A stretch of DNA of 64,000 bases from an uncultured Desulfobacterales bacterium (GTDB taxonomy: Bacteria; Desulfobacterota; Desulfobacteria; Desulfobacterales; SpSt-501), in NCBI GenBank assembly GCA_938048455.1, contig CALIUY010000002.1, forward strand, positions 62,001 through 126,000, given 5' to 3'. A program made the translations under genes and the position numbers. Below, in pieces: positions 2,069-32,088 of this stretch. Positions within the stretch are counted from its first letter, which is position 1, and the number at the start of each line of letters is the position of its first letter. The notes under the pieces were generated by a model. That model was not told the DNA's origin and did no database searches. It worked only from the letters and a program-made list of their open reading frames with translations.

Positions 2069-2170
2069 CGATTTCGCCTTTCGGCGCCGTGGGGGAAGCC
2101 TTCCCCCGGCTTGCCGGAGCCTGTAACGTCACCGCGACGAAACGGCGATAAGCTGCCGCAGACGGAAGCG

Positions 2171-2219
2171 CTTGTCAATCGCCGGATCGTTGACAAGAGG
2201 CGCCCAAACGGCGTAGAGT
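2171..2219 (+). promoter_or_regulatory. Divergent promoter region with an inverted repeat (MerR operator candidate)
   Basis: CTTGTCAA at 2171-2178 and TTGACAAG at 2190-2197 form a perfect 8-bp dyad with an 11-bp spacer. The right arm contains TTGACA (2190-2195), which with TAGAGT at 2214-2219 and an 18-bp spacer makes a plausible sigma-70 promoter toward the beta-oxidation gene. The left arm gives TTGACA on the minus strand toward the MerR gene, although no good -10 is seen there at 17 bp. One regulator dimer bound here could affect both directions. Confidence 0.55.
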
Positions 2220-2296
2220 GTCCGCGTATCGTGCAATTCGCTACACGTTTATCGGCCGTCATCTCCGGGGAGTTCGCAAGGGAGGCGCGAGGGAAG

Positions 2297-5692: not shown

Positions 5693-5756
5693 GCCCGAAG
5701 GCGGATACGCGGGCGACACGAGGCGATGAATCCACCGGAGCAAGCGGATCCGGACG

Positions 5757-8083: not shown

Positions 8084-8150
8084 CCCTCAACCCCCGTGAC
8101 CGGCGCTTGCGGAGGCCAGTACCGTAAACGCCCGCCGGGAGCCTGAGCCG

Positions 8151-9653
8151 ATGGCCGCCTTCTCCGATTACGAGCGTTTCGACGGCCTGGGGCTGGCCGA
8201 GCTCGTCCGCCGCAAGGAAGTCTCCCCGGCCGAGCTCCTCGAAGCCGCCCTCGAACGCATCGCCCGGATCAACCCCCGCATCAACGCCGTCGTGACCCTT
8301 ATGGAAGAGGCGGCGCGCCGCGCTCTGGCCTCTCTGCCCGAGGGGCCTTTCCGCGGGGTGCCTTTCTTGATCAAGGATCTTCTCTCGGTCTGCGAAGGGG
8401 CCCCGCTCACCTGCGGCTGCCGCGCGCTTCGCCGGTTCGTCCCCGACCACGACGGCGAGCTCGTGCGCCGTTGGCGCCGGGCGGGGTTGGTGATTGTGGG
8501 CAAGACGAACACCCCCGAGTTGGGTCTTGTCGCTTATACCGAGCCGGAGCTCTTCGGCCCCACACGCAACCCCTGGGATCCCGAGCGCACCCCCGGCGGG
8601 TCGAGCGGCGGCTCGGCGGCCGCGGTCGCCGCCGGGATCGTGCCTCTGGCCGGTGCCGGCGACGGCGGAGGATCGATCCGCATCCCGGCCGCCTATTGCG
8701 GGCTTTTCGGGTTGAAACCGAGCCGCGGCCGGACCCCGACCGGCCCGGACTTCGGGGAGATCTGGCAGGGGGCGGTCGTCGAGCACGTCATCACGCGCAG
8801 CGTGCGCGACAGTGCGGCGGCGCTCGATGCCGTCTGCGGTCCCGAATGCGGCGCACCCTATGTGATCGCCCCGCCCCGGCGACCCTATCTCGAAGAGGTC
8901 GGATGCGATCCCGGAAGGCTCCGGATCGCCTTCAGCACCCGCTCGCCGATCGGGCTTTCGGTTCATCCCGAACACGAAACGGCGGTGCTCGAGACGGCGA
9001 TCGTTCTCGCCAAGGCGGGCTGCGAGGTCGAAGAGCGGGAGCCGCCGCTCAACGCAATCGAGCTCGCCCGAAGCTATCTTACGCTCCTCTACGCCGAGGT
9101 CGCCTCCGATCTAGAAGAAATCGAAAGGCTGCTCGGCCGGAGGCTTTCGCGCGCGGATGTGGAGCGGCCGACCTGGATCCTGGGAAAGATCGGGCGGATC
9201 ACCCCTGCGGCGGACTTGTCCGCGGCCAAGCGGCTCTGGGGTCGCGCCGGCCGGGTCCTGGGGAAGTTTCACGAAACTTGGGATCTCTATCTCACGCCCA
9301 CCACCGCCCACCCTCCCGCGCGGATCGGCGAGCTTCGTCCCGGGCCGCGCGAGATGCTCGCGCTGCGTGCCGTGGACCGCCTGGGAGTGCTGGGACTGGT
9401 GCATCGCCTGGGGTTTTTGGAGGCCATCGCCTTTCGCAACCTGGAGCGTACGCCCTTCACGCAGCTCGCCAATTTCACGGGGCAGCCGGCGATGTCGGTT
9501 CCCCTGGCCTGGAGCCGGTCGGGGCTTCCCCTCGGAGTGCACTTCACCGCCGCGGTCGGCCGCGAAGATCTCCTTTTCCGCCTGGCCGGCCTACTCGAGG
9601 CCGAGCGCCCCTGGTTCGACCGGAGGCCGTCGCCGGCTGCTCTTTCGCGCTGA
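8151..9653 (+). CDS. Amidase signature family hydrolase
   Basis: A 500-residue amidase with the complete Ser-cisSer-Lys triad: the lysine in PFLIKDLLS (about K75), the cis-serine in [12 protein letters not shown] (about S151) and the nucleophile in [10 protein letters not shown] (about S175). The length is typical for amidases and GatA. It is probably not GatA, since no gatB or gatC is adjacent and the C-terminal half is unlike GatA. It hydrolyses a carboxamide to acid plus ammonia; the substrate is not evident. It begins 67 bp after the dehydratase genes on the same strand and may belong to the same transcript. Confidence 0.9.
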
Positions 9654-14174: not shown

Positions 14175-14252
14175 GCGCCCGTAGCTCAGCCCGGATAGAG
14201 CGCCGGACTACGAATCCGTAGGTCGCAAGTTCGAATCTTGCCGGGCGCACCA
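14175..14252 (+). tRNA. tRNA-Arg (anticodon ACG)
   Basis: A 78-nt cloverleaf with encoded CCA: acceptor GCGCCCG/CGGGCGC, D-stem GCTC/GAGC, anticodon loop CTACGAA, T-arm GCAAG-TTCGAAT-CTTGC. The first pair of the anticodon stem is a C-T mismatch. A34 is the target of TadA. Its 3' end is also the left edge of the iron and haem island: a decayed integrase C-terminus points at it from just downstream, as expected for an element integrated at a tRNA gene. Confidence 0.95.
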
Positions 14253-14601: not shown

Positions 14602-15120
14602 TCACCTCTTGCCGGATTTTGGTCTTTTGGCGAGCTTCAACTTACGAATACAGGCGGTGCATTCCCCACCGTGTTTGCGGTCCGACTGGCAGAAACGAAC
14701 GAATGATTCAAGCCACTCCGCCCCCGCGCGTGGACAGGTGCGAATGTATTCAATGAAACAGACCAGCCGCTTCAGGCTCTTGGAGTCGATCGCATGCTCC
14801 ATGCGGCAGGCGGTGGCCTCGGCGGTCGGCTCATCGATCTGCAGCACGTTCAACAGGAAATCCTTCAGCATCCGATGGCGGTAGGCCACCTCCTCGGCGA
14901 TTTTGCGCCCCGCTTCGGTCAGAGTAATGAAGCTGTAAGGCTGATAGTGGATCAGGCCCTTTTCCTCCAGGCTCTTCAGAGCCCCGGTCACCGATCCGCG
15001 CTGGACGCCGAGCCGGTCGGCGATGTCCTTGGCCCGCGCCACCTTTTGATCGGTCTCAAGCTCCAGGATCACCTCGAGATAACCCTGGTTGCTTTCGGTC
15101 AGGTCCAGAAATTCAACCAT
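14602..15120 (-). CDS. DtxR/MntR-family metal-dependent regulator
   Basis: A 172-residue regulator with an N-terminal winged helix (AKDIADRLGVQRGSVTGALKSLEEKGLI) and a metal-binding dimer domain (AYRHRMLKDFLLNVLQIDE, then CRMEHAID). No SH3-like third domain is present; instead the tail carries cysteines (RFCQSDRKHGGECTACIRK). I choose the ATG at 15118-15120 because an AAGGGGAG site lies just upstream, over one 10 codons earlier. It is divergent from feoAB, whose promoter carries a perfect palindrome, so it is most likely the Fe(II)-dependent repressor of this island. Manganese sensing is the alternative. Confidence 0.88.
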   Translation of the reverse strand: MVEFLDLTESNQGYLEVILELETDQKVARAKDIADRLGVQRGSVTGALKSLEEKGLIHYQPYSFITLTEAGRKIAEEVAYRHRMLKDFLLNVLQIDEPTAEATACRMEHAIDSKSLKRLVCFIEYIRTCPRAGAEWLESFVRFCQSDRKHGGECTACIRKLKLAKRPKSGKR

Positions 15121-15220
15121 CTCTCCCCTTCGCGTCGGCCGGATCGGCACGAATGCCTGTCATGTAACACGTCGAAAAAAGTCGGTCAAACCCTACCGGG
15201 CATGCAATGAAAAAAATTAT

Positions 15221-15293: not shown

Positions 15294-15530
15294 ATGACGC
15301 GACAGAATCTGAGAAAGCTCACGGAACGCCAATCCGCGGTGATTGCCGCCGTCAAGGCGGACGGCGAGCTCGGCCGCCGCATTCGCGACATGGGGCTTGT
15401 GCCCGGGACGGTGGTCACCGTCTGCGGCCGCGCCCCGCTCTACGATCCGGTGGCCCTGCGGGTCATGGGCTACACGCTCACGCTGCGCAACAACGAGGCG
15501 GACTACATCGAAGTGGTGGTGGAGGACTGA
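15294..15530 (+). CDS. feoA: Ferrous iron transport protein A
   Basis: A 78-residue SH3-like protein that assists FeoB at the inner membrane. [18 protein letters not shown] and [24 protein letters not shown] are the FeoA fold. The ATG at 15294 with an AGAGGT site is preferred over a TTG ten codons upstream that lies next to the promoter. It ends one base before feoB. Confidence 0.93.
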
Positions 15531-15531
15531 C

Positions 15532-17757
15532 ATGGAAGCAACCATCGCATTGGCCGGAAACCCAAACTCCGGCAAAAGCACCCTCTTCAACGCCTTGACG
15601 GGCGCCCGCCAGCGGGTCGGCAACTACCCGGGCGTCACGGTGGAGAAGAAAGAGGGCCGCTATGAGCTAAACGGCATCAAACTGAACATCGTCGATCTGC
15701 CCGGCACCTACTCGCTCACGGCCTACTCGCCGGAGGAGGTGGTCGCCCGCGACTTCCTGGTGGACCAGCGGCCGGCTCTGGTCGTGCACATCGTGGATGC
15801 CGCCAACCTGGGGCGGAACCTCTACTTGACGCTGCAGTTTTTAGAGCTCGGGGTTCCGGTCGTGATCGCCCTCAACATGATCGATGTGGCCGTGGAGCGG
15901 GGGATCCGGATCGACGCTGAAAAACTGGCGCACCTTCTACGGCTGCCGGTGGTGCCCACCGTCGCCCGCAGCGGCAAGGGCAAGGAGGCGCTCATGGAGG
16001 CGGTCGCGGCGGTCGTGCAATCGCGCGCACCGATCGATCCGCTTTTCATTTCCTACGGCAACGAGATCGATCCGGTTCTCTCCGAGCTCGGTCGGCGGAT
16101 CCAAGCTGCCGGGTTCCTGACCCAGCGCTTCCCGGCCCGCTGGACGGCGCTGAAATACTTAGAGGGCGACGAGCAGGTCCGCGCCCTGGGGGCCAAGGCC
16201 GACCCGCGGCTGCATGCCGAACTCGAGGCGGCCGTGGCCCGTCTGGCAGACCACCTACAGTCCACCGCCGACACCTACCCCGAGGCGGTGATCGCCGATC
16301 AGCGCTACGGGTTCATCAGCTTGATCCTCAAGCAGGGGGTGGTCACCCGCACGGGAGACCTGAACCGGCTTTTTCTCTCCGACAAGATCGACCAGGTGGT
16401 GACCCAGAGGTTTGTCGGGCCGCTTTTCATGGCCGCCGTCGTCTACGGGCTCTACCACTTCACCTTCGGAATCAGCAAAGCCCCCGTCGCCTGGGTCGAG
16501 GGGTTTTTCGGTGGGTTGAAGGGGCTGGCCGAGGCGCACCTGAGCGACGGGCCGCTCAAGTCGCTGATCGCCTCCGGCATCATCGACGGCGCCGGCGGGG
16601 TGCTGGGCTACACCCCGTTGATCATGTTCATGTTCTTCGGCATCTCGCTGCTCGAAGACTCGGGCTACCTCGCGCGGGTGGCCTACATGCTGGACCGGGT
16701 CTTCCGCGCCTTCGGCCTGCACGGCAGCTCGGTGATGGCCTTCGTCGTCTCGGGCGGAATCGCCGGCGGTTGTGCGGTGCCCGGGGTCATGGCGACCCGT
16801 ACGCTCAAGTCGCCGCGGGAAAGGCTGGCCACGCTTCTGACCGCCCCCTTCATGAATTGCGGGGCGAAACTGCCGGTGTTCGCGCTCCTTGTGGCCGCTT
16901 TTTTCGAAAGCCATGAGGCGCTCGTCATGCTGGCCATCACGGTCCTGGCCTGGGCCGGCGCGCTCCTCGTGGCGAAGCTTTTGCGTGTCACCGTGATCAA
17001 GGGGGCCGCCACTCCGTTTGTCATGGAGCTTCCACCCTACCGGCTGCCGACGCTGAAGGGTCTCTTGATCCACACCTGGGAGCGCACCTGGCAGTACATC
17101 AAGAAGGCCGGGACCGTGATTCTGGCGATCTCCATTTTGCTGTGGGCCATGATGAGTTTTCCGCAGCTGCCGGAAGTGGTGCAGGCGCAGTTCGAAGAGC
17201 GGCGCGCCGCCGTGCTCGCCGCGGCCCCGGCCGAAATCGCCGCCGAAATGGCAGCGGTCGAAAAGGAGGCCGGAGAGGGGGTCGAGCTGTCGGAGCAGGC
17301 CCAGGCTGTCAAGGAGCAGCTGCTAACCATCGAGGCCGAGAAAGCCGGCGCCGCCCTGGAGCACTCGATCGCCGGCCGCATCGGTCGGGCGCTCGAGGGC
17401 GTCAGCGCACTTGCCGGATTCGACTGGCGCACGAACATCGCCCTCGTGGGCGGCTTCGCCGCAAAGGAGGTGGTGGTCTCCACCCTCGGCACGGCCTACT
17501 CCTTGGGCGAGGTCGACCCGGAGGAGAGCGGCTCGCTCTCCGAGAAACTCGCAGCCGCACCCGGCTGGCGGCCGCTCACCGCACTCAGCCTGATCGTTTT
17601 CACCATGTTCTATGCGCCCTGCTTCGTCGCGGTCGTGTGCATCTCGCGCGAGGCCGGCACCTGGCGCTGGGGAGCCTTCTCGATGATCTTCAACACCCTG
17701 CTCGCGTTCACGCTCGCGGTCCTGATCTACCAGACGGGCTCGGCTTTGGGTTTCTGA
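15532..17757 (+). CDS. feoB: Ferrous iron transporter FeoB
   Basis: A 741-residue Fe(II) permease. The G-protein domain shows GNPNSGKST (about residues 8-16), the switch region [19 protein letters not shown] and NMID, followed by the helical GDI domain. Two Gate regions with [12 protein letters not shown] and [14 protein letters not shown] and a FeoB C-terminal region follow, with about 8-10 membrane helices. A charged alanine-glutamate stretch near residues 550-610 separates the last helices, as in other long FeoBs. It sits between feoA and a small Cys-rich protein under the iron-box promoter. Confidence 0.95.
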
Positions 17758-21251: not shown

Positions 21252-21539
21252 ATGAGCAGCGACAAAAAACAACCGATCGAAACGGTGACCCAAAGCATCA
21301 CCGCGCTGCAGAAAAGCATCGAGCGACACCGATGCCTGGTTGAGTCCCTTCTAACTCAAGAGGTGGACGAGGACCGGAATCGTGAGTTGTTGGCCGGTTG
21401 CCCGACCTACAACCGCGAGGCCAGACTGACAGCGGCTATAAAAGAAGCCATCGATGTTCTGGAAGAGAGCCGCAGGGCGTTTAAATCCAAGACGCTGGAA
21501 AGGCTGAGGAAAAGACTTCTCGAAGTATTGCTCGACTAA
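21252..21539 (+). CDS. Small protein of unknown function, paralogue 2
   Basis: A 95-residue helical protein, paralogue of 17991-18290. The shared core is AAIKEAIDVLEESRRAFKSK and TLERLRKRL; HRCLVESLL also parallels the HCCLVAFLL of the other copy. It is followed by copy B of the RNA-like element. The repeated order small gene then element then a different downstream gene suggests duplication of a module. Confidence 0.7.
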   Translation: MSSDKKQPIETVTQSITALQKSIERHRCLVESLLTQEVDEDRNRELLAGCPTYNREARLTAAIKEAIDVLEESRRAFKSKTLERLRKRLLEVLLD

Positions 21540-21642: not shown

Positions 21643-21708
21643 TTCGGTTGCCGGGTAGATTCCAACTCAGATGGACGGCATTTCTTGAATGGTAAAGGAG
21701 ACACACGC

Positions 21709-22209
21709 ATGGCCAAGCCGTTTGAAATAAAATTGAAGCGAGTCGGCAATAACCTGCATCTGCGCCCGAAAGGCGACTTGGATGGCAGTTCGGCGATGCA
21801 ACTGGTCAATGCACTCCACGAACACTACAACGGGGTCGGCCGGGTATACATCGACACGGATGCGTTGGGTTCGATTTTCCCTTTCGGTGTCCAGATATTT
21901 CAGAAGCAACTCAATCCCGCCCACCTGCCACTGAATCGGCTGCTTTTTGTCGGCAAAAAGGGGCTGGCGATCGCCCCTAAAGGAAGCAAGGTCATCGTCG
22001 CCAGCGAAAAGCATGTTTGCCGCTGCAACGGCAAATGCACCGAATGCAGGTGCTCCGCCAAATCAACCATTTTGCCGCTCAATAGCTGTCAGGAGCATTC
22101 GAGACCCATTATGAACGGTCTCGAAATTAAATTGAGATGTTCTGTAAAATCTCCCCTGCCCCTTTTTGCCAAAGAGGGAGGATTCCTCCCCTTGGAAAAG
22201 GGAGGTTAA
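21709..22209 (+). CDS. STAS-like small protein with Cys-rich tail
   Basis: A 166-residue protein with an AAAGGAGA site before the ATG at 21709. Residues 1-80 resemble a STAS or anti-anti-sigma fold (LRPKGDLDGSSAMQLVNAL, then VYIDTDALGSIFPFGVQIF). Residues about 103-114 hold a cysteine cluster (CRCNGKCTECRC) that could bind iron or zinc. The last 24 or so residues (from about 143) are read from a palindromic repeat and are probably not ancestral. Function is unknown; the context suggests metal-linked regulation. Confidence 0.6.
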   Translation: MAKPFEIKLKRVGNNLHLRPKGDLDGSSAMQLVNALHEHYNGVGRVYIDTDALGSIFPFGVQIFQKQLNPAHLPLNRLLFVGKKGLAIAPKGSKVIVASEKHVCRCNGKCTECRCSAKSTILPLNSCQEHSRPIMNGLEIKLRCSVKSPLPLFAKEGGFLPLEKGG

Positions 22210-22278: not shown

Positions 22279-23667
22279 GTGTCGGAGTTAGCTCAGAAGT
22301 TACTGCAGAACCTGTATTCACCAACTTTCGCCGGAGAAGATCCGCGCGCGTTTTTTGCACGGGAGGATGTCGACCCCCTTACGCATGCCTTCGAAAAGAA
22401 GATGGTGATCCACGCCGGCGTTGGCGGGCAGGTGTTGGCAAAGGAAGTCTACGGCCCGGTAATGGACGAGTTGCTCTCACAACCGCGCCAGGGTCCCTCA
22501 GCCGTATATATCCACGTGCCGTTTTGCGAAAGCCATTGTCTGTATTGCGGTTTTTACAGCCGACCGTTTCGTCAAACGGACAGTCAGATCTTTACCGATG
22601 CGCTGCTGAGGGAGATTGAGCTCTGGCGCGATCGACCGGCCGTCGGCAGCGGCCCCATCCACGCCGTCTATCTCGGCGGCGGCACGCCGACCGCCCTGGC
22701 GGCGAAGGACATCCAGCGCCTGCTCAAGGCCATCCACGCCGGCTTCCCTCTCGCCAACGATTGTGAAGTGACCGTTGAAGGACGCATCCACAATTTCGGC
22801 CCGGAGAAGCTGGACGCATGTCTGGAAGGCGGGGCTAATCGGTTTTCCATCGGTGTGCAGACGTTTCAAACCGAACTCAGACGATCCATGAATCGCCTGT
22901 CCGATCAGCAAACCGTGCTGGACACTCTCTTTCGGCTCAAGCGTTGCGATCGGGCGGTCGTCGTGATCGATCTCATCTACGGCTTCCCCCGGCAGTCGAT
23001 GGACCTCTGGATCAAAGACATTGAACTGTTTCTTTCCTTGGAAATCGACGGGGCGGACCTCTACCAACTGAATGTCTTCAAGAAAGGCCCTCTGGACCAG
23101 GCGGTCGCTGACGGAAAGCTCCCGCCGACGGCGGATCTGCCCCGACAGGCGCTCATGTTCGCCGAGGCGGTCGGGTGCCTGGAAAAGTCCCGCTGCCGTC
23201 GCTTGTCCATGAGCCACTGGGGCCGCTCGACAAGAGAACGCAATATCTACAACCACATGATGAAGGGGGCGGCCAGCTGCCTGGCATTTGGACCCGGCGC
23301 TGGCGGCAGTCTGGGCGGCCACGCCTATTTTGTGGAGAACGATTACATCCGATGGCTGGAAACCGTTAAAAAAGGGGAAAAACCGGTTTCCATGCTGGCC
23401 GCTCCGCACCGATTTCATCGCCTGTACAAGGCGCTTGCTGCCGGCTTCGACCTGGGCGGGGTCGACCTTGCGCGCCTGGACAATGAGTTCAACCAGCCGA
23501 TCACGGCGATGGCCGAGCCGTTGCTTCGCCAATGGCATCGATGCAGGCTGATCGATGTCAGGGACGGCTGGCTGGAGCTGACGCTGGCCGGTCAATTCTG
23601 GCACGCCAACCTCGCGCAGCTCATGATCGACTACCTGCACTTTAATCTGGAAAGGAAGATAGATTGA
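22279..23667 (+). CDS. hutW: HutW/ChuW-type anaerobic haem-degrading radical SAM enzyme
   Basis: A 462-residue coproporphyrinogen-dehydrogenase-like radical SAM protein. The cluster motif is VPFCESHCLYCGF (C-x3-C-x2-C), followed by YLGGGTPTAL and a typical HemN-like core; the C-terminal FWHANLAQLMIDYLHFN region is the HutW type. In anaerobes ChuW/HutW opens haem and frees iron without oxygen. The GTG at 22279 with an AAAGGAAA site is preferred over a TTG at 22231 inside the repeat. It leads an eleven-gene operon with receptor, importer, haem carrier and flavodoxin, which supports haem breakdown over haem synthesis. Confidence 0.85.
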   Translation: MSELAQKLLQNLYSPTFAGEDPRAFFAREDVDPLTHAFEKKMVIHAGVGGQVLAKEVYGPVMDELLSQPRQGPSAVYIHVPFCESHCLYCGFYSRPFRQTDSQIFTDALLREIELWRDRPAVGSGPIHAVYLGGGTPTALAAKDIQRLLKAIHAGFPLANDCEVTVEGRIHNFGPEKLDACLEGGANRFSIGVQTFQTELRRSMNRLSDQQTVLDTLFRLKRCDRAVVVIDLIYGFPRQSMDLWIKDIELFLSLEIDGADLYQLNVFKKGPLDQAVADGKLPPTADLPRQALMFAEAVGCLEKSRCRRLSMSHWGRSTRERNIYNHMMKGAASCLAFGPGAGGSLGGHAYFVENDYIRWLETVKKGEKPVSMLAAPHRFHRLYKALAAGFDLGGVDLARLDNEFNQPITAMAEPLLRQWHRCRLIDVRDGWLELTLAGQFWHANLAQLMIDYLHFNLERKID

Positions 23668-25778
23668 TGGCCTCCGCATTCTCTCGCTCTCGATCGATAG
23701 TCAAGAAAACGGTTTTGTTGGCGTTATTTACTTCGATGTTGGCGCCCTTGTTGAGTTGGGCTGATGATAAACCTGCCGGCGCAGCCATAAGAACCGGCGA
23801 GGTCGTCGTTACGGCGACACGCACCGAGCGTGAGCTTCAGGAAGTACCCGTTTCCATCTCCGTCGTTACGCAGGAGGAGATCCAGCGCTCCTCCGCCACC
23901 ACGGTTGCCGACGCCCTGCAGGACATACCGGGCGTCGAGGTGTTCGACCAGTCGATCGCGGGAGGCAAACGGGTTCAGATCCGCGGTGAGAGTGGCGCGC
24001 GTGTTCTCGTCCTCATCGACGGGCAGAAAATCTCCGAGCAGAAGTCCATGGACGGGGCGGCGCTTCTGATCGACCCCAACCGGATCGAGCAGGTCGAAGT
24101 GATCAAAGGGCCGGCCTCCGTGTTGTACGGTTCGGAGGCGATCGGCGGGGTGGTCAACATCATTACGAAAAAAGGCGGCGAGAGGCCGCTCCAGGCGGAG
24201 GCGAGCGCCACCTATGATACCTCGGCCACCGGTAGGGTCGGCTATGCCTCGGCCTTCGGCCGCTACGAAGGCTTGAGCTACCGGGTGTCTGGAAGCCTGA
24301 CCGATTACGGCAACCGCCGCACCCCGGATGGGACCCTGGACAATACCTCTTATGATATCCGGGATTTCAGCGCCTTTTTCGGTCACGACTGGAAAAAAAT
24401 CTCCATCGGGGCGACGGTGGAGGACTACAAGAGCGAAATCCAATCCCATACGCCGGAAGGGACTACGGGCAGCGTGTTGACCTATTTTCAGCTCGATCTG
24501 CCGCAATGGGAACGCCGCAAGGCCGGTGCCTTTTTCGAGGCCCGGGACATCAGCGACTTCTTCACCCGGGTGCGCGTCGACTGCTACTACCAGAACACCT
24601 TCAAGGAGTTTAAAAATGACATGATTCTCTCCATCCCCATGGGGCCTATGGGGAGGTTGATCCGAGACATGCGACAAAGGACCGAAAACGATCAGGACAC
24701 TTACGGTGGGCTCATCCAAACCGACTGGCGGCCTTTGCAAAACCATTACCTGATAATTGGGTACGAGCCCGGCTTCGACCGGCTGGATTCGACCCTGGAT
24801 GTAGTTACCGTGCAACGCTCCCCGCTGCCGCCGCCTTTCGGGACCACGACCACGACTGTGCAGAGTTTCGACTATAAGGCCGAGATGGACACCCACGCCG
24901 TTTATATCCAGGACGAATGGACCCTGCCGGCCGACTTCACCCTGACGCTTGGCGGCCGCCAGACCTGGGTGGATTCCAGCTTGACGGACACCAACAACCC
25001 CAATATCGAGAAAGACAGCAAAAAAGATTCTAAGCCGGTGTTCAGCGCAGGCCTCACTTACGCCGGGATCAGGCACTTGGTGCTGCGCAGTCTCTTCGCT
25101 CAGGGCTATCGGTTTCCCAACCTCCAGCAGCTTTTCATCGGCACGGTGCACGGTGGGGCCGACCCGACCTTTCCCAATCCGGATCTCGACCCGGAAACCT
25201 CCAACAACTATGAGCTGGGGCTGAGGTTTAAAAACCAGGTGCTTGCCATCGATATCGCCGGGTTCTTCTCCGATGCGAAAGACTACATCACCACCGAGCC
25301 GGTAGCAGGCGGCCGGCAATTCACCAACGTTGAAAAGGCGAAGACCTACGGCGTCGAGGCCACCGCAAGCTATACCTTTTCCGATTGGGGATTGACGCCC
25401 TACGCGAGCGGTACGTGGCTCAGACGCAAGTTTGAAAGCGAGGACTTCACCACCTGGAACACCGGGCACCCCGAGTGGATGGGGCGGCTGGGCCTCCGGT
25501 ACCAGCAGGATTTTTGGACCAGCCGATTGCGTTTATTTGCGGATCTCTACGCTCGGGCGGCCGTCAGCGCCGAGGAGGAGTTCTCCGACGGCACCCGCGA
25601 GAAATACAAGTCCTGGGAGACGTTCAACCTGACGCTCGGCGGCGAGTTCGGCCAGAAACGCCGGCATTTCGCAGCGGTGAGTTTGAACAACCTCTTCGAC
25701 CAGGAGTACACGAGGGCCCAGTCGACCCTCGTGGAGCAGGGGTTCCATGCGGTTTTGAAGGTCGGCACCTCTTTCTAA
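23667..25778 (+). CDS. TonB-dependent outer-membrane receptor
   Basis: A 703-residue receptor. A signal peptide (about 1-31, cut after LLSWA) is followed by a TonB-box-like segment (GEVVVTATRTE), a plug domain (about 45-160, ending VLYGSEAIGGVVNIITKK) and a 22-strand barrel ending in phenylalanine (VLKVGTSF). The extracellular motif YRFPNLQQLF and PNPDLDPETSNNYELG correspond to the FRAP/NPNL region of haem receptors but also occur in other TonB receptors. The ATG overlaps the hutW stop (TGATG). Haem or haemoprotein is the best ligand guess from the operon. Confidence 0.88.
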   Translation: MASAFSRSRSIVKKTVLLALFTSMLAPLLSWADDKPAGAAIRTGEVVVTATRTERELQEVPVSISVVTQEEIQRSSATTVADALQDIPGVEVFDQSIAGGKRVQIRGESGARVLVLIDGQKISEQKSMDGAALLIDPNRIEQVEVIKGPASVLYGSEAIGGVVNIITKKGGERPLQAEASATYDTSATGRVGYASAFGRYEGLSYRVSGSLTDYGNRRTPDGTLDNTSYDIRDFSAFFGHDWKKISIGATVEDYKSEIQSHTPEGTTGSVLTYFQLDLPQWERRKAGAFFEARDISDFFTRVRVDCYYQNTFKEFKNDMILSIPMGPMGRLIRDMRQRTENDQDTYGGLIQTDWRPLQNHYLIIGYEPGFDRLDSTLDVVTVQRSPLPPPFGTTTTTVQSFDYKAEMDTHAVYIQDEWTLPADFTLTLGGRQTWVDSSLTDTNNPNIEKDSKKDSKPVFSAGLTYAGIRHLVLRSLFAQGYRFPNLQQLFIGTVHGGADPTFPNPDLDPETSNNYELGLRFKNQVLAIDIAGFFSDAKDYITTEPVAGGRQFTNVEKAKTYGVEATASYTFSDWGLTPYASGTWLRRKFESEDFTTWNTGHPEWMGRLGLRYQQDFWTSRLRLFADLYARAAVSAEEEFSDGTREKYKSWETFNLTLGGEFGQKRRHFAAVSLNNLFDQEYTRAQSTLVEQGFHAVLKVGTSF

Positions 25779-25797
25779 ACGAAAGGAACATAGAGAG

Positions 25798-26433
25798 ATG
25801 GATCTCTCGTTGGATAACCCGGATCACCCTGAGCGGGTGGCCTATTCCCATGCCTCGGTCGAAGGGGGCGTTCTTTCGACTCGTCTGAACAGCCGCTTGC
25901 GCCATGGCTACTGGGAAGTGCGGGATTTGGTGACGATCGGGGTTTTGGCGGCGATGACCAAAGTGGCCAGCCTGTTGGTCGCCCTCGTCGGCGGCGGCAT
26001 GAACCCTCTTACCCTGGTATTCAAGAATCTCGTCTTTACATCGCTGCTGGTGGTCCTGCTGTTTAAAGTGCCCAAGTCCGGCTCTTTGATTCTGTTCATG
26101 GTGATCAACATCCTGGTCACCATGCTGCTCATGGGCAGCGGTTTTTTTCTGATGCCGTCAATGCTTCTGGCCGGGATTATTGCCGAAGGAGTGATACTCG
26201 CGCTCGGCGGCTATCAGCGGACGTTCGGCATCATCATTGGGGCCGCCGTTTACGACGTCCTGTTCAAAACCGGCTCGCTTGCCATCTCCTGGGTCCTGAT
26301 CCGCGAGCAGCCTCAGCTGCTGTGGATATCCGCGATCATGGTCGCCATCGGCTATATCGGATCTTTGGCCGGATTGGTGACCGGGTTTCTCTTCGTCAAG
26401 GAGCTTCGCCATGCTGGTATTATTCGGGAATGA
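25798..26433 (+). CDS. ECF transporter S component (MptD/Trep_Strep-like)
   Basis: A 211-residue membrane protein with about six helices beginning near residue 40 (VRDLVTIGVLAAMTKVASLL) after a hydrophilic N-terminus. Length and pattern fit the substrate-binding S component of an ECF importer of the MptD/Trep_Strep group. GAAAGGAA precedes the ATG. It overlaps the T component by 23 bases and is flanked by the receptor and ATPase genes, so in this operon it is the likely inner-membrane binder of haem or a haem product. Related ECF systems have been proposed for haem in lactic acid bacteria. Confidence 0.8.
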   Translation: MDLSLDNPDHPERVAYSHASVEGGVLSTRLNSRLRHGYWEVRDLVTIGVLAAMTKVASLLVALVGGGMNPLTLVFKNLVFTSLLVVLLFKVPKSGSLILFMVINILVTMLLMGSGFFLMPSMLLAGIIAEGVILALGGYQRTFGIIIGAAVYDVLFKTGSLAISWVLIREQPQLLWISAIMVAIGYIGSLAGLVTGFLFVKELRHAGIIRE

Positions 26434-27187
26434 TCCGGCGCCGCAACCGACCTGGATTCGACGCCTGGACGTGCGAACGAAGATGGCGATCAGCGCCTTG
26501 GCCTCGACGGCGGTAATGGCTCTCAACCAGCCCTGGTCGTTGAGCTTGCTGGTTGTCGCCAGTACGCTTTATGCACTATCGCTTCGTCGGCTCAAGCTGG
26601 TCCTGGTCTGCTACCTCGCCGTCCTTTTTCTTGGCGCCACGGCCCTCCTGTTCATTCACGGCCTGCACTGGGTTTGGCCCAGGGCCTCCGCAACAAGGAT
26701 TCAGGACTTGATCGTTCCGTTTTTGCGAACGGGGGTAATGGTCAACGTCATGCTGGCACTGGCGCTTTCATCCAACATTCAGTCGATCCTGACCGGACTC
26801 AAGAGCCTGCGGCTGCCGTTTTGCATCTTTATTCCGGCCGTCGTCATGATCCGGTTCATTCCCAATTTTATCGAAGATGTGCGCCAAATCGCCGAGACGG
26901 TGCGCATACGAGGCTATCGCTTCACGCCGTGGCTGCTGGGGAGCCGGCCGCTGTTGGCGGTACGACTGCTTTTCGCCCCGCTCTTGTTCCGGGCGTTGAG
27001 AACTTCGGATGAGCTCGGGATGGCGGCCGAGTTGAAGGGAATCGGCTATTCAAGAATCCTTTCGCCGTATAAGTCGGTGCATTTCGGTAAATTGGACGTG
27101 GGCGTTGGCCTGACGGCGCTGCTTTTGGTCGCTGCCGCGCTCGCCGTCCAGTTATTGTTTCCTGCGTCGCCAGGGGTACGGATCTGA
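26411..27187 (+). CDS. ecfT: ECF transporter T component
   Basis: A 258-residue EcfT/CbiQ-family coupling protein with membrane helices in residues 25-110 and 235-255 and two coupling helices carrying the Ala-Arg-Gly-like motifs ETVRIRGYR and AAELKGIGYS. It links the S component to the ATPases. Its start lies inside the S gene and its stop overlaps the ATPase start (TGATG), so the three subunits are translationally coupled. Confidence 0.87.
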   Translation: MLVLFGNDPAPQPTWIRRLDVRTKMAISALASTAVMALNQPWSLSLLVVASTLYALSLRRLKLVLVCYLAVLFLGATALLFIHGLHWVWPRASATRIQDLIVPFLRTGVMVNVMLALALSSNIQSILTGLKSLRLPFCIFIPAVVMIRFIPNFIEDVRQIAETVRIRGYRFTPWLLGSRPLLAVRLLFAPLLFRALRTSDELGMAAELKGIGYSRILSPYKSVHFGKLDVGVGLTALLLVAAALAVQLLFPASPGVRI

Positions 27188-28602
27188 TGATTGCGCTCGA
27201 CCATATACACTATGCGTATCCGTTTCAAACCTGCAAGGCGCTTGACGATGTATGCCTTCGAATCCGGCCGGGCGAGGCCGTTTTATGCACCGGCCGCAGC
27301 GGCAGCGGCAAGTCCACGCTGGCCCGGCTGATCAACGGGTTGTGCCCGCATGTCTTCAGAGGCGACCTGCGTGGCAGGGTCACGGTCGCCGGGCAGGACA
27401 ATTTAGCCCGCCGAATCAGTGAAATCGCGCATGATGTCGGCACGCTGTTCCAGGACCCCGAGCACCAGTTTTTCGCTCTGGCCGTTGAAGATGAAATGGC
27501 ATTTGCGCATGAATGGCGGAACCGGACACCCGCCGAAATCCAAAGGCGAATCGAGGAGGCCGCAGACTCATTGGGCGTTCGACCTCTGTTCGGCTCCGTT
27601 CTCCATGCCCTGTCCGAGGGAGAAAAGCAGAAAGTCGCCCTCGCATCGATCATGTCCCTGAAGCCCAAGGTATTGGTCCTGGACGAACCGACGGCCAACC
27701 TCGACCCGGAAGCCACTATGGATCTCGGTCGCCACATTCTCCGCTTCAAGAAAGAGGGAATGGCAATCCTGGTCGTCGACCACCGCCTCTATTGGCTGCG
27801 GGACATCGTCGATCGGGTGATTGTCATGGACCGGGGTCGGATTGCCCTGGAGGGCGGTTTCACGATGCTGTCCGACCATTCGTTGCGCGCGCACTACGGG
27901 TTGCGCCTCGATTCCGTATCCGACCCGAGACCGGGTCTCACGGAATCTTTTCTCCATGATGGGTTTCTGCAGGTGGAGGGACTGCATTTTTCCTACCGCA
28001 GGGGCCGGGATCTGTTCAACGGCGCCTCCTTCCAACTCCCCCGGGGCGTCACCGGCATCATCGGGAATAATGGTGCGGGTAAAACCACCCTGGCCCGGGT
28101 CCTGACCGGTCTGAATTCCAAACGAGCCGGGAAAATCCGTCTTGATGGAAAGCCGGTGTCGCCCCATGAACTGCTGCGCCGGTCAAGCCTCGTGTTGCAA
28201 AACACCGACCACCAGCTGCATATGAAGACCGTCGTCGCGGAGATGGAGCTGTCCGCCGCACGGGTTTCAACCCGCCTACGGGAGACGCTGGTTGCCGGGT
28301 ATTTGCGCGATCTTGACCTGGCCCATCTGGTCAAGCGCCACCCCCAGTCGCTGTCTGGCGGTGAGAAACAGCGCCTGGCCATCGCCTGCGGCTTGGCCAA
28401 GCAGCCGGACGTTTTGGTCCTGGACGAGCCGACCAGCGGCCTTGACGGCCGCAACTTGCAGCGCATTGCGGCCGCGATCCGAATGACCGCTGACCGGGGC
28501 GCCTGCGTTCTGCTCATTAGCCACGATCTCGAGTTGATCGCAAGCGTCTGCGACTGCGCGTTGCGCGTTCCGATTAAGACCAGCCCCCCAACCCCTATTT
28601 GA
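27187..28602 (+). CDS. ECF transporter ATPase, fused A-A' domains
   Basis: A 471-residue protein with two ABC domains in one chain. Domain 1 has GRSGSGKSTL (about residue 38) and LSEGEKQKVALA; domain 2 has GNNGAGKTTL (about 295) and LSGGEKQRLAIA. Each is followed by a Walker B (VLVLDEPTANLDPE, VLVLDEPTSGLDG). In domain 1 the signature glycine position reads LSEGE rather than LSGGE. It powers the S and T components and gives a dedicated (group I) ECF importer. Confidence 0.9.
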   Translation: MIALDHIHYAYPFQTCKALDDVCLRIRPGEAVLCTGRSGSGKSTLARLINGLCPHVFRGDLRGRVTVAGQDNLARRISEIAHDVGTLFQDPEHQFFALAVEDEMAFAHEWRNRTPAEIQRRIEEAADSLGVRPLFGSVLHALSEGEKQKVALASIMSLKPKVLVLDEPTANLDPEATMDLGRHILRFKKEGMAILVVDHRLYWLRDIVDRVIVMDRGRIALEGGFTMLSDHSLRAHYGLRLDSVSDPRPGLTESFLHDGFLQVEGLHFSYRRGRDLFNGASFQLPRGVTGIIGNNGAGKTTLARVLTGLNSKRAGKIRLDGKPVSPHELLRRSSLVLQNTDHQLHMKTVVAEMELSAARVSTRLRETLVAGYLRDLDLAHLVKRHPQSLSGGEKQRLAIACGLAKQPDVLVLDEPTSGLDGRNLQRIAAAIRMTADRGACVLLISHDLELIASVCDCALRVPIKTSPPTPI

Positions 28603-28613
28603 GGAGAGAAGAT

Positions 28614-29147
28614 ATGTTCGCCGAACAGCTGCCTGATGCAATCCGCCAACGTATCCTTTTGACGGCTAGGGAAGATCCGGGCTTCATGCTGCACGAGATG
28701 GCCTCTCAACTGGGAGTTAACGAAGGCGCAATCGCAGCCGCGCTGCCGGAGGATATGTGTACGGTCGTCGCAGGGGGGTTGTTTGAGGAAATCTGGGAGG
28801 CCATGACGACCTGGGAGAAGATGACCCTCGTCGTTCCCAACCCGGGGGGAATTTTCGAATTCGAGGGCCGACTCCCAAATGGCCGTCACGGGCACGGGTT
28901 TTTTAACATCGGTGAGGCGGGCCATTCGATCGGCGGCCACCTTCGGTCGGAGCACATCATGGCGATCGCCTTTCTTTCCAAGCCGTTCATGGGCATGGAG
29001 AGCCACTCCGTCAGGTTCTACGACACGGACGGCAGTTTGGTCATGGCAGTTTACGCCGGTCGGGAAGGCCGCGCAGTCATTCCGGCCGTGCGCGAGTCGT
29101 TTAAAGCCTTGCGCCGAAAGGCCGCACAACAGGAGGGTTGCAAATGA
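28614..29147 (+). CDS. hutX: HutX/ChuX-like haem utilisation protein
   Basis: A 177-residue cytosolic protein. PEDMCTVVAGGLFEEIWEAM and WEKMTLVVPNPGGIFEFEG, then GHGFFNIG, match the ChuX/HutX family, which binds haem and passes it to degrading enzymes. The N-terminal 50 residues form a helix-turn-helix-like segment (LHEMASQLGVNEGAIAAALP) also seen in family members. A GAGGAGAG site precedes the ATG at 28614; the stop overlaps the flavodoxin start (ATGA). Confidence 0.85.
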   Translation: MFAEQLPDAIRQRILLTAREDPGFMLHEMASQLGVNEGAIAAALPEDMCTVVAGGLFEEIWEAMTTWEKMTLVVPNPGGIFEFEGRLPNGRHGHGFFNIGEAGHSIGGHLRSEHIMAIAFLSKPFMGMESHSVRFYDTDGSLVMAVYAGREGRAVIPAVRESFKALRRKAAQQEGCK

Positions 29148-29671
29148 GATCTCTGATCGTGTTTTCGTCGCTCACCGGGAACACCGCCAAGGTCGCCCGT
29201 GCGATTTATGACGTCCTGCCCGAGCCGCGCGAGATCCACACCGTGGAGTCCGTTCCTTCGCCCGACGGGTTCGACTTCATTGCGGTCGGTTTCTGGGTGG
29301 ACAAAGGCATGCCCGACACCCGTTCGCGAAACTATCTGAAAACTCTCAAGGGAAAGCGTGTCGGGTTGTTCGGGACGCTGGGGGCCGATCCCGGCTCCGA
29401 TCACGCCAGGCGGTGCCTCGAAAACGCGCTGCAACTGGCTGAGGGCAACACCGTTCTGGGAACTTTTCTCTGCCAGGGCCGCATCGACCCGAAGGTGGTC
29501 GAGACCATGCGCCGAATGGCGCCCGAGGCCCACCCGATGACCCCCGAACGAATGGAACGCATCCGGGCCGCCGAAACCCACCCGGATCGCGAAGATCTTG
29601 AAAACGCCCAGGCAGCGTTTCGTCGGATGATAGCAGCGGTTGTTTCGGAGGATGCCCTATGCGCGCGATGA
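29144..29671 (+). CDS. Flavodoxin-family protein of the haem locus
   Basis: A 175-residue flavodoxin-like protein with the FMN phosphate loop SSLTGNTAKVARAI near the start and FIAVGFWVDKGMPD, LFGTLGADPGSDHA later, as in BilS/ChuY-neighbour flavodoxins. It likely gives electrons to the HutW-like enzyme or to a tetrapyrrole reductase. I choose ATG 29144 (AGGAGGG 6 bases upstream) over a TTG two codons earlier. It overlaps the next gene by 13 bases. Confidence 0.85.
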   Translation: MRSLIVFSSLTGNTAKVARAIYDVLPEPREIHTVESVPSPDGFDFIAVGFWVDKGMPDTRSRNYLKTLKGKRVGLFGTLGADPGSDHARRCLENALQLAEGNTVLGTFLCQGRIDPKVVETMRRMAPEAHPMTPERMERIRAAETHPDREDLENAQAAFRRMIAAVVSEDALCAR

Positions 29672-30129
29672 CGCCGGATGAAATTCAAGCTGTAATCGGC
29701 AGCACCAAGTGGGCGACTATCTGCACCGTGTCGCCGGAGGGGATGCCATACGCCATTGAAGCGACTCCTTTTTCCTACCACAGCCATTTGTGCTTCATGG
29801 TCAATCCGCGCGGTTCGACCTGGCGCAACCTGCAGTCCAACCCCAATGTGCTGCTGAAGTTTACCCGGGCTGCCGACAATCTGAGCTGGTGGGCAGGCGT
29901 GTCGTGCTTCGGAACCGGCTGCTTCGACTCGGACCCGGAGGCGATCCGCAGTGGTTTTGTCCTCTTGGGCGGCATCATGCAAGCCGACTACGCCGCCGCA
30001 GGCGAAAGGTTTTCCCTGAACCCCAAACGTTCTCCCATGCTTCGAGTAACGGTTGCCGCCGCCACCGGCCGCTGCAGTGCACAGCATGGACAGCCGTTGA
30101 TCCTGGAACCGTCGGCAAAACAAGGATAA
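29659..30129 (+). CDS. PPOX-fold (pyridoxamine 5'-phosphate oxidase-like) protein
   Basis: A 156-residue split-barrel flavoprotein-type protein. WATICTVSPEGMPYAIEATP and HLCFMVNPRGSTWRNLQSNP with VLLKFTRA fit the FMN-binding split barrel. Haem loci often contain a related HutZ/HugZ protein, which degrades or binds haem, but this one is shorter and could be a flavin reductase. An GGAGGATG site inside the flavodoxin gene precedes the ATG. Confidence 0.78.
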   Translation: MRAMTPDEIQAVIGSTKWATICTVSPEGMPYAIEATPFSYHSHLCFMVNPRGSTWRNLQSNPNVLLKFTRAADNLSWWAGVSCFGTGCFDSDPEAIRSGFVLLGGIMQADYAAAGERFSLNPKRSPMLRVTVAAATGRCSAQHGQPLILEPSAKQG

Positions 30130-30132
30130 CCA

Positions 30133-30813
30133 ATGGATTGGCATATTTTGAACAAAGTGGGGCCGGCAGGAGCGGCTCTGGTTTTTCTTTCATGCCTGGG
30201 CCTTTACCTGGCGCTTCGCAACGGTGTCTACTTATTCATGGTCAGCCGCGACTTCCGGCACACCCTGCCGGACATCGAAGAGCTTCCGCATTATGCACAG
30301 TCGCTTTGCGAGAAGACTGACAACCCCCTGGTGGGGATCATCGCCGGCGTGGTTCAAACCCATGCCACCCATTCCAAGGACATCCGGTCGGAGGTGGACT
30401 ACTTGTTTTACCGGAACTTTGCCTCGGTGACCCGCGGTTTGACCTATTTGCGGTTGATTTCGATAATCGCACCGCTGCTCGGGCTGTTGGGGACTGTGCT
30501 CGGGATGGTCCGAGTGTTCGCGACCCTCGCCTCCCGCTCTGCGGCCGATTCCGCTTTGTTGGCCGAAGGGATTTGGGAGGCGCTCTTGACCACGATCATG
30601 GGGCTTTGCGTGGCCATCCCCACCCTGATCGCCTATTACCACCTCAGCCTCAAAATGAAAGGATTTCGAATCGAAGCGGTCGAGCACAGCTACCGCGCGG
30701 TGGAAGGGCTTGGCCTGACCTGCCCGAAGCCGTCCGTCGCCCCGCCGGATCAGAAGTTGAACAGCCCGCGCATCGTAGCACCCGTGTCCGCTTCGCGCCG
30801 GAGGTCCTCATGA
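30133..30813 (+). CDS. exbB: ExbB/TolQ-type proton channel subunit
   Basis: A 226-residue inner-membrane protein with three helices (about 14-36, 108-135, 145-172). LRLISIIAPLLGLLGTVLGM and WEALLTTIMGLCVAIPTLIAYY are the MotA/TolQ/ExbB core. It uses the proton gradient with ExbD to energise TonB. It begins 3 bases after the PPOX gene and overlaps exbD. Confidence 0.92.
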   Translation: MDWHILNKVGPAGAALVFLSCLGLYLALRNGVYLFMVSRDFRHTLPDIEELPHYAQSLCEKTDNPLVGIIAGVVQTHATHSKDIRSEVDYLFYRNFASVTRGLTYLRLISIIAPLLGLLGTVLGMVRVFATLASRSAADSALLAEGIWEALLTTIMGLCVAIPTLIAYYHLSLKMKGFRIEAVEHSYRAVEGLGLTCPKPSVAPPDQKLNSPRIVAPVSASRRRSS

Positions 30814-31214
30814 TGGAGATGCACGAACCCGATGAGGCCTTTGAGGCTGGCATCGATTTAACCCCCCTGATCGACGTGGTTTTCATGCTGCTGATTTTCT
30901 TCATCATGGCGACCACATTTTCCAAGCCGGTTCTTGACCTGGTCCTGCCGGCGGCACAGTCGGCCGAACCTCAATCCGGCGGCAAGCGGGAGATGGTGAT
31001 CGGCATCAATTCCGAGGGGCAGGTGTTTCATGAGGGAACGATGATCCTATTAACGAATCTGCCGGAGCTGTTCGAGAGGCATCCGGAGCTGCCGCTGAAC
31101 GTTCAGGTGGATGAAGGGGCCCCTTTCAAAGCCTTTATGGAGGTTTTGGATCAGGCCAAGATAAAGGGGAGAGGGCAGATTGCCATTGCAACCCGGCCAC
31201 GCGAGCAGCCATAG
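30810..31214 (+). CDS. exbD: ExbD/TolR-type subunit
   Basis: A 134-residue protein with one N-terminal helix carrying the proton-relay aspartate (IDLTPLIDVVFMLLIFFIMA) and a periplasmic domain. The ATG at 30810 overlaps the exbB stop by ATGA. The frame extends upstream only as antisense or out-of-frame reading. It overlaps the tonB start by 35 bases. Confidence 0.92.
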   Translation: MMEMHEPDEAFEAGIDLTPLIDVVFMLLIFFIMATTFSKPVLDLVLPAAQSAEPQSGGKREMVIGINSEGQVFHEGTMILLTNLPELFERHPELPLNVQVDEGAPFKAFMEVLDQAKIKGRGQIAIATRPREQP

Positions 31215-32088
31215 CCTGCTGCACTGTCAAAGCCGACGAGCGGCCTTGGCGGCAACGATGCTGCTGCTGTTGATGGCGACCCTGTCGGTTTACCATTTGG
31301 GTAGCCGCCTCCAGCCCGGCAGGATAAGCCCGGCCAACAGGCCCCTCGTGGTGAGCATCAGGCCGGCGGGCGTGCAGGTCCTTGAAAAACTAATGGACCC
31401 CGGGCCAGCTTCGCCCCTTTCTGAACCGTTTTCCACAACCGTCTCGGATGGGATTACCGCATCTATCCCGGAGGTGAAACTACCCCCTCCGCAGCTGCGT
31501 AGTCCCTCACCTAAGCGCCCCCTCGAGGCCAAACAGCCAGCCCCCGGCTCCAAGAATCCGCTACCCGCTGTGGCTCAAACCGCTGAAGCCCTATCGCCCG
31601 ATTCCACGGCCAAAGAGTCAACGGCGGACAAACCTGTGCCGCCGGCCGATTTCGCCGCCGCCGCGGCGGGCGGGCCCCCCTCGGCCACGAACGAATCAAG
31701 CCGTGCCGCGAAACCATCGGGCCATCCGATTGCTTCGCAGCCAAATAGTTCTGTCTCCCAAGCGGCAGCGGAGGGCAATCAGACTGAAAAAGCCGTGGTC
31801 GATCAGATCATTGCCGCTTTGGTAGCAGTAGTCGAGCAACACAAGCGATACCCCCAGGCGGCTAAGCGAGCCGGATACGAAGGCACCGTTACGATCAGCG
31901 TTCGGATAGACCGCCACGGATTCATCCGCGGATACGAGCTGACCTGTGGCAGCGGGCGGTCCGTGCTGGATGATTCCGCTTTAATGATTTTTCGCCGCAT
32001 CGGAGATATTCGGATTGCTGCGGTGTCAATCGATCGCGATCTAACGCTGGTTGTTCCGGTACGCTACGCACTGAATCCAGGGGCATAA
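31180..32088 (+). CDS. tonB: TonB-family energy transducer
   Basis: A 302-residue protein with an N-terminal helix (about 20-40, RRAALAATMLLLLMATLSVY), a proline-rich periplasmic spacer (90-190) and a C-terminal TonB domain (about 210-300: KRYPQAAKRAGYEGTVTISV, IDRHGFIRGYEL). The start is probably the TTG at 31180 after GGGGAGAGG. It completes an ExbBD-TonB set dedicated to the receptor in the same operon. A terminator follows 56 bases on. Confidence 0.88.
   Translation: MPLQPGHASSHSLLHCQSRRAALAATMLLLLMATLSVYHLGSRLQPGRISPANRPLVVSIRPAGVQVLEKLMDPGPASPLSEPFSTTVSDGITASIPEVKLPPPQLRSPSPKRPLEAKQPAPGSKNPLPAVAQTAEALSPDSTAKESTADKPVPPADFAAAAAGGPPSATNESSRAAKPSGHPIASQPNSSVSQAAAEGNQTEKAVVDQIIAALVAVVEQHKRYPQAAKRAGYEGTVTISVRIDRHGFIRGYELTCGSGRSVLDDSALMIFRRIGDIRIAAVSIDRDLTLVVPVRYALNPGA

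Follow-up and report, generated by a model that had tools for sequence, protein, structure and literature searches.

A candidate energy-coupling factor haem importer encoded with a predicted anaerobic haem ring-opening system in a diderm bacterium

We analysed a window of 64,000 nucleotides from an uncultured Desulfobacterales bacterium (GenBank assembly GCA_938048455.1, contig CALIUY010000002.1, positions 62,001 to 126,000; coordinates below are those of the window unless a locus is named). Eleven plus-strand open reading frames (ORFs), all present and in one direction (22279-32088), encode in order the radical S-adenosylmethionine (SAM) enzyme HutW, a TonB-dependent receptor, the S, T and fused A-A' components of an energy-coupling factor (ECF) transporter, HutX, a flavodoxin, a PNPOx-fold protein, ExbB, ExbD and TonB (Table 1). 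The successive junctions measure -1, 19, -23, -1, -4, -10, -13, 3, -4 and -35 bases, with an overlap at eight of ten. In Vibrio cholerae the haem importer genes are hutBCD. A scan of the 11 ORFs with family models found no match to a periplasmic binding protein or a FecCD permease, the pair that marks an importer of the HmuTUV or HutBCD type, whereas S, T and two ATP-binding cassette (ABC) ATPase domains are encoded side by side, as in Group I ECF transporters. By its sequence, this T-AA'-S set would perform ATP-driven uptake.

The first protein scores 500 bits on the ChuW/HutW model, against 138.6 for HemW and 118.2 for HemN, and on these scores an identification as HemN or HemW was rejected. 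The radical SAM motif reads CESHCLYC (residues 83-90), and its three cysteines are invariant in 54 rows. All 54 HutW proteins from the S loci and near relatives, which had been pre-selected with our own profile before scoring, match TIGR04107 at E <= 1e-100. The window protein is thereby predicted to open haem to anaerobilin without oxygen. An initial annotation, made from the DNA letters without database searches, had read the locus as a mostly overlapping eleven-gene series with a HutW-like rather than HemN/HemW-like enzyme and with the ECF set as its only importer, and the junctions, scores and family scan agree with it on each of these points.

Table 1. Features of the predicted haem operon and its surroundings in the window.
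Feature	Position	Strand	Evidence and remarks
hutW, radical SAM anaerobilin synthase (predicted)	22279..23667	+	TIGR04107 500 bits, cut-off 400; CxxxCxxC; start uncertain (GTG 22279, or ATG 22240 / TTG 22231)
TonB-dependent receptor, probably haem	23664..25778	+	PF07715 plug and PF00593 beta-barrel; TIGR01785 best model, below cut-off
ECF S component (substrate-binding membrane protein)	25798..26433	+	PF09605 (Trep_Strep) 46.3 bits, cut-off 28.7; AlphaFold2 model with six helices; Z 12.7 to 5edl
ECF T component	26411..27187	+	PF02361 CbiQ 62.1 bits
Fused ECF A-A' ATPases	27187..28602	+	two PF00005 domains; two each of Walker A, LSxGE and Walker B
hutX, cytosolic haem carrier (predicted)	28599..29147	+	start TTG 28599 or ATG 28614; TIGR04108 157.4 bits, over cut-off of 110; ChuX/HutX-type structures 2ovi, 5exv
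Flavodoxin, HmuF/FldH kind (predicted haem carrier and anaerobilin reductase)	29138..29671	+	PF12641 177 bits; PDB 8g64
PNPOx split-barrel protein, which may bind flavin or haem/bilin	29659..30129	+	PF01243 35.7 bits; AlphaFold2 pLDDT 92.9
ExbB	30133..30813	+	PF01618 88.7 bits, over cut-off
ExbD	30810..31214	+	PF02472 76.3 bits, over cut-off
TonB	31180..32088	+	PF03544 (TonB_C) 46.2 bits, over cut-off
Terminator-like RNA hairpin with T-rich tail	32145 to about 32177 or 32184	+	just 3' of tonB; -21.1 kcal/mol, z -5.9, 0/200 shuffles equally stable
Small ORF, 95 amino acids, possible first gene of unit	21252..21539	+	E 4e-20 to a relative that adjoins hutW in Desulfocicer vacuolatum (L042)
Small ORF, 174 amino acids, possible second gene of unit	21685..22209	+	E 1e-28 to a relative in L042; E 2e-11 to one close to the HutW-like gene of L167
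DtxR-type repressor	14605-15150		upstream of operon
FeoB	15343-17754		upstream of operon

The S component has no sequence match in the PDB (alignment search, nothing at E <= 1), and therefore its fold had to be compared. An AlphaFold2 model built with 54 sequences (predicted local distance difference test, pLDDT, 86.5) resembles solved S components, most closely 5edl (root-mean-square deviation 4.0 over 168 aligned residues) and with Z scores of 10-12 ThiT and RibU. Because helical bundles without kinship can reach a Z of about 13, more weight is carried by the Foldseek search, in which 5edl ranks first (E 2.4e-3) and S components head the list, and by the neighbouring T and AA' genes. By sequence, S belongs loosely to the Trep_Strep/MptD family: it exceeds the cut-off of PF09605 and, at 41.7 bits, falls under that of TIGR02185 (76.45). 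Since the S profile does not match the canonical Trep_Strep proteins of one genome (L176 and L198; 110 and 88 bits on PF09605) at E <= 10, the HutW-linked proteins form a subfamily of their own, with the motifs GGGMNP and RE. Across the 54 sequences (the window and 53 of 61 S rows, leaving out L037, L049, L054, L068, L070, L082, L083 and L095), 11 columns are invariant, including G65, G66, M68, N69, P70, R169 and E170, and M68 may be regarded as a candidate iron ligand. In a quick tree the window protein groups with S proteins of Desulfobacterota, on a long branch with a support of 89. No Pfam match to the CbiM or NikM families was found for S, and a reading of the whole set as a cobalt or nickel ECF system was rejected on this ground. 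A tblastn search of S against 72,556 plasmid records gave no match.

The only PDB match of the flavodoxin is the haem-bound FldH, whose haem ligand in the cap, His134, aligns to His130 of the window protein (counted from Met 29144). This column holds histidine in 34 of 50 rows (49 distinct), a gap in 13 and another residue in 3; on the BilS model NF045594 the flavodoxin scores 110.9, below the cut-off of 155. HutX and the flavodoxin form one fused protein in seven Deferribacterota loci of Mucispirillum and its kin (L052, L062-L065, L068 and L069), and these fusions point to haem iron. The fold of the PNPOx protein resembles HutZ and many further split barrels; as this fold is common to many flavin proteins and no NCBIfam model matched at E <= 0.1, an identification as HutZ was rejected. 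In some loci a half-size ABC exporter (ABC_membrane and ABC_tran domains) follows the flavodoxin (L028:1556-3367 and L043:14913-16664), which might export the opened tetrapyrrole.

Histidine and methionine are both able to ligate haem. The receptor of the window has a FRAP-NPNL-like segment (YRFP...GTVHGG...NPDL) containing His495 (counted from Met 23667), and among 43 aligned rows (41 distinct), restricted to receptors scoring more than 700 bits on our own profile, this column holds histidine in 15, methionine in 28 and no other residue. The difference between rows and distinct sequences, here and for the flavodoxin, is due to duplicate loci between sets (L028 = L039, L031 = L054, L168 = L050, L174 = L073). 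The motif and its haem-ligating histidine are described in a review (PMC6449446), and by sequence the occupancy of the column may point to haem iron.

The gene set is widespread and not peculiar to the window genome. Among 58 genomes (that of the window and 57 relatives), five encode a HutW over the cut-off, the window's included; three of the other four (L028, L030 and L031) carry this operon too, with the gene order kept or varied, and the fourth (L029) has HutW and the flavodoxin without S. Four aligned S components, used as the query in one pass over 84,980 species genomes, returned 60 loci, whose neighbouring ORFs were scored by profiles made from the window proteins and their matches. 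When the count is confined to those 41 loci in which S is flanked on both sides by 4 kb or more (19 of the 60 being dropped for less than 4 kb on one side or, in L096, for an S ORF that was not called), T and AA' are present in all 41 and HutW in 40, followed by the flavodoxin (36), the receptor (33), HutX (32), ExbB, ExbD and TonB (26 each) and the PNPOx protein (2). Over all 60 loci the corresponding numbers are HutW 50, T 56, AA' 55, TonB receptor 44, HutX 38, flavodoxin 47 and PNPOx 5, and HutW is missing from ten; in nine of these the sequence breaks off close to S on one side or both, and the tenth is L042. Most often the genes run hutW - receptor - S - T - AA' - hutX - flavodoxin - exbB - exbD - tonB, as in the window minus the PNPOx gene.

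Many of the genomes with an S locus are metagenome-assembled. The hosts include Desulfobacterota (Desulfobacula, Desulfoluna, Desulfovibrio, Bilophila, Mailhella and others), Sutterellaceae, Deferribacterota (Mucispirillum), SAR324 and Planctomycetota/Kiritimatiellota/Verrucomicrobiota. In this last group the locus retains HutW-S-T-AA' but contains neither a TonB receptor nor HutX, and S and HutW remain linked without either in L084, L085, L087 and L094. A chance neighbourhood of genes is ruled out, because the same set recurs in distant genomes. In L199 (G482:C68) a second, diverged HutW-like gene lies beside a paralogous S and T, and the same genome also has the main set.

The linkage can also be considered from the side of HutW. 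Of 395 sampled genomes from the window's phylum, 11 encode S, nine with a strong match (at least 146 bits) and two with a weak one (42 and 21 bits), and 18 have a HutW over its cut-off; all nine strong-S genomes lie within those 18 and both weak-S genomes outside them. The hypergeometric probability of this overlap is 8e-14 if genomes are taken as independent, whereas they are related and represent 6 genera. HutW genes with an adjoining flavodoxin and no local S also occur in the phylum (e.g., L158, L160 and L161), and the neighbours of S-less HutW genes (12 proteins from L157-L161 and 3 from L165) gave no Pfam match to a FecCD permease or a binding protein. In L165 (G212:C128) a full TonB-HutW-flavodoxin operon is accompanied by T, AA', a P-type ATPase and a different S-like protein, P0001 (10559-11128 of L165), which belongs to no Pfam family and weakly resembles the S profile (probability 19.8). 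Relatives of P0001, sought in 46 genomes of its class, were found in its own genome only. P0001 is possibly a second haem S type, apparently unrelated to the main S subfamily; if it is indeed an S component, two distinct S proteins would link ECF import to HutW. In L106 (positions 1489-3533 of this locus; G162:C3) a distant S relative and T and A genes directly adjoin a CobN-type chelatase (PF02514, 530 bits), possibly another tetrapyrrole ECF system.

Predicted regulatory sites in many relatives are of the iron type. Fur-like 19-base boxes (at least 14 of 19 matches) lie upstream of 20 of 47 operons, where 1.5 are expected and 100 random sets gave a maximum of 5, and these boxes point to haem iron. 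MntR-type boxes upstream of the operons show no excess (mean 11.7 versus 11.9 matches), and a scan for sigma-70 promoters stayed at chance level (4 found, 4.5 expected). Of 64 loci compared (62 distinct), 12 (11 distinct) have close to the operon a member of a repressor-like family, in which one protein is a DtxR-FeoA fusion by Pfam. In the window, the stretch from 14000 to 50000, which begins near a tRNA-Arg gene (14175-14252) and contains the DtxR and FeoB genes, the haem operon and arsenate-type genes, has a G+C content mostly lower (0.57-0.65) than its flanks (0.63-0.68). None of six genomes of the same genus has a HutW over the cut-off, and the stretch is possibly an acquired region. The two small ORFs upstream of hutW match no family; relatives of both lie near hutW or feoB in Desulfocicer vacuolatum, those of the second also in L167, and both ORFs may belong to the operon unit.

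Taken together, we consider it likely that the ECF set imports haem for HutW, and that this diderm devotes the locus to obtaining haem iron under anaerobic conditions. ExbB-ExbD-TonB would energise the outer-membrane haem receptor, and S, a membrane-embedded protein, would itself bind the haem in the periplasm, with no periplasmic binding protein as an intermediary. The T-AA' module would then move S-bound haem into the cytosol, where HutX and the flavodoxin may take it over and pass it to HutW. HutW would open the ring with SAM and low-potential electrons, freeing Fe2+, and the flavodoxin could subsequently reduce the resulting anaerobilin. Such a path from the outer membrane to ring opening, with an ECF transporter, had been proposed in the initial annotation, and both the gene content and its recurrence support it, with haem as the substrate of S inferred from genomic context. 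A search for the same gene order in other genomes, which the annotation had suggested, was strongly positive. It had also named a clade of known non-haem specificity as a placement of S that would speak against its proposal; S instead falls in a subfamily of Trep_Strep, a family without an assigned substrate.

Several observations weigh against this interpretation. The support for the substrate of S is contextual; LhaS shows His-like haem ligation, whereas the membrane part of S has no well-conserved histidine, the only conserved one being H205 near the C-terminus (46 of 53). The receptor scores best of all models on the haem-receptor model TIGR01785, yet remains below its cut-off (237.1 versus 316.85). 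Half of the HutW genomes in the phylum sample (9 of 18) lack this S, and at the sole well-covered locus without HutW nearby, that of Desulfocicer vacuolatum, about 9 kb separate S-T-AA' from a partial hutW, which is encoded on the opposite strand at the edge of the stretch analysed. Upstream of the operon in the window no Fur-like box was found (best 11 of 19; shuffle mean 10.9). Finally, among 36 operon-bearing genomes of the 60 loci, 32 have a FecCD match, over the cut-off in 31. FecCD is absent from the other four (Bilophila, Mailhella, Aphodousia and Kiritimatiellae, one genome each), a point in favour of haem import by the ECF set that is suggestive only, because the completeness of these genomes is not given, and two further operon genomes have a weak or partial match only.

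The window genome (96.5% complete) has two FecCD systems, and by sequence both look cobamide-type and neither haem-type. One adjoins a gene for cobamide remodelling, CbiR (270 bits, cut-off 105), and for the permease and binding protein of this system BtuC and BtuF are the best or second-best models; the best models of the other are the B12 receptor for its receptor and BtuF for its binding protein, with all BtuF, BtuC and receptor scores below their cut-offs. In the same genome, L035 (positions 5121-9105 of this locus; G000:C5) encodes a BtuFCD-like system and, after it, an ORF in which a NifH/ParA-like start precedes a CbiR domain.

Other substrates have to be weighed against haem. The ECF set could carry another tetrapyrrole (a metal-free or other metalloporphyrin, a bilin or a corrinoid) that is processed by the same cytosolic proteins. 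The lack of a conserved membrane histidine for iron ligation would fit this, as would the weak S relative beside a CobN-type chelatase and the S-type corrinoid proteins known from BtuM (PMC6072759). We nevertheless regard it as unlikely: the constant partner of S is HutW, whose model is an equivalog for haem degradation, the haem carrier HutX accompanies S in 32 of 41 loci, the Fur-like boxes point to iron, and the window genome is already provided with two cobamide-type systems. A substrate unrelated to tetrapyrroles, such as another cofactor or a metal ion, would require haem to enter by a non-dedicated permease, e.g., a dipeptide transporter. There is some ground for this in a Trep_Strep family without known substrate, in a T component of the CbiQ family, which is used for cobalt and nickel, and in Campylobacter jejuni mutants lacking chuBCD, which still use haem according to a review (PMC6449446). 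The near-constant linkage of S with HutW over several phyla, which holds also at loci with few other partners, and the absence of a Pfam match to CbiM or NikM make it decidedly improbable.

The locus might also remove or recycle the cell's own haem, the transporter handling a released product. The HutW genes of the phylum that stand beside a flavodoxin without a local S could be understood in this manner. A TonB receptor with its own ExbB-ExbD-TonB fits uptake, the relatives show iron-type regulation, and a DtxR repressor and FeoB are encoded upstream in the window; of the readings considered here, recycling is the least probable, and haem import for HutW remains the one that we favour.

The passage of haem over the inner membrane of Gram-negative bacteria has been ascribed to ABC importers of the HmuTUV type, which work with a periplasmic binding protein. 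In the hmuTRUVWF operon of Fusobacterium nucleatum, HmuW and HmuF form a HutW-flavodoxin pair encoded with HmuTUV, as in other organisms (PMC10404700). Similar to this operon, that of the window combines a TonB receptor, an anaerobilin synthase and an FldH-type flavodoxin with the equivalent of FldH His134, but in contrast to F. nucleatum, where HmuT and HmuUV mediate the crossing, it has an ECF set without a binding protein. HutW and HutX are shared with hutWXZ of Vibrio cholerae and chu of E. coli O157:H7 (PMC12670364), and a PNPOx-fold protein adjoins them as HutZ does there; unlike in the hut system of V. cholerae, the importer is of the ECF type and the PNPOx protein has no NCBIfam match. 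Haem import by an ECF-type transporter, deduced here from the genes, has been described for the iron-regulated LhaSTA of Staphylococcus lugdunensis, and also in streptococci and Lactobacillus sakei, and the three known S components share little sequence with each other (PMC7299338). Those hosts are monoderm, whereas the host of the window is a diderm. BtuM of Thiobacillus denitrificans is likewise an S-type protein of a Gram-negative bacterium, acting after a TonB receptor and taking up a tetrapyrrole without a binding protein, but it is solitary, has no ECF module and has cobalamin as its substrate (PMC6072759).

Haem ECF transporters in Gram-positive bacteria, HutW-flavodoxin operons with HmuTUV and the pairing of a TonB receptor with an S-type protein for cobalamin are thus already known. 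What appears new is the combination of two known kinds into a diderm route from TonB to ECF, without a periplasmic binding protein, coupled to anaerobic ring opening and broadly distributed. In the titles and abstracts of the open-access literature, with subscription papers largely outside this scope, we found neither an ECF haem importer in a diderm nor a coupling of ECF and HutW. The new S subfamily probably serves anaerobic diderms of at least five phyla as their haem importer, TonB-fed, free of a binding protein and tied to an anaerobilin synthase, and the apparently unrelated S-like protein of L165 would mark a second coupling of ECF and HutW.

If S binds haem, there would be a second route across the inner membrane in many anaerobes, including sulphate reducers and the gut genera Sutterella, Parasutterella, Bilophila, Mailhella and Mucispirillum. 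It would provide a first substrate for the relatives of Trep_Strep and explain the use of haem iron where HmuUV is missing. It would also pose the question of how a TonB receptor passes a lipophilic, reactive ring to a membrane protein that topples, with no carrier between the two.

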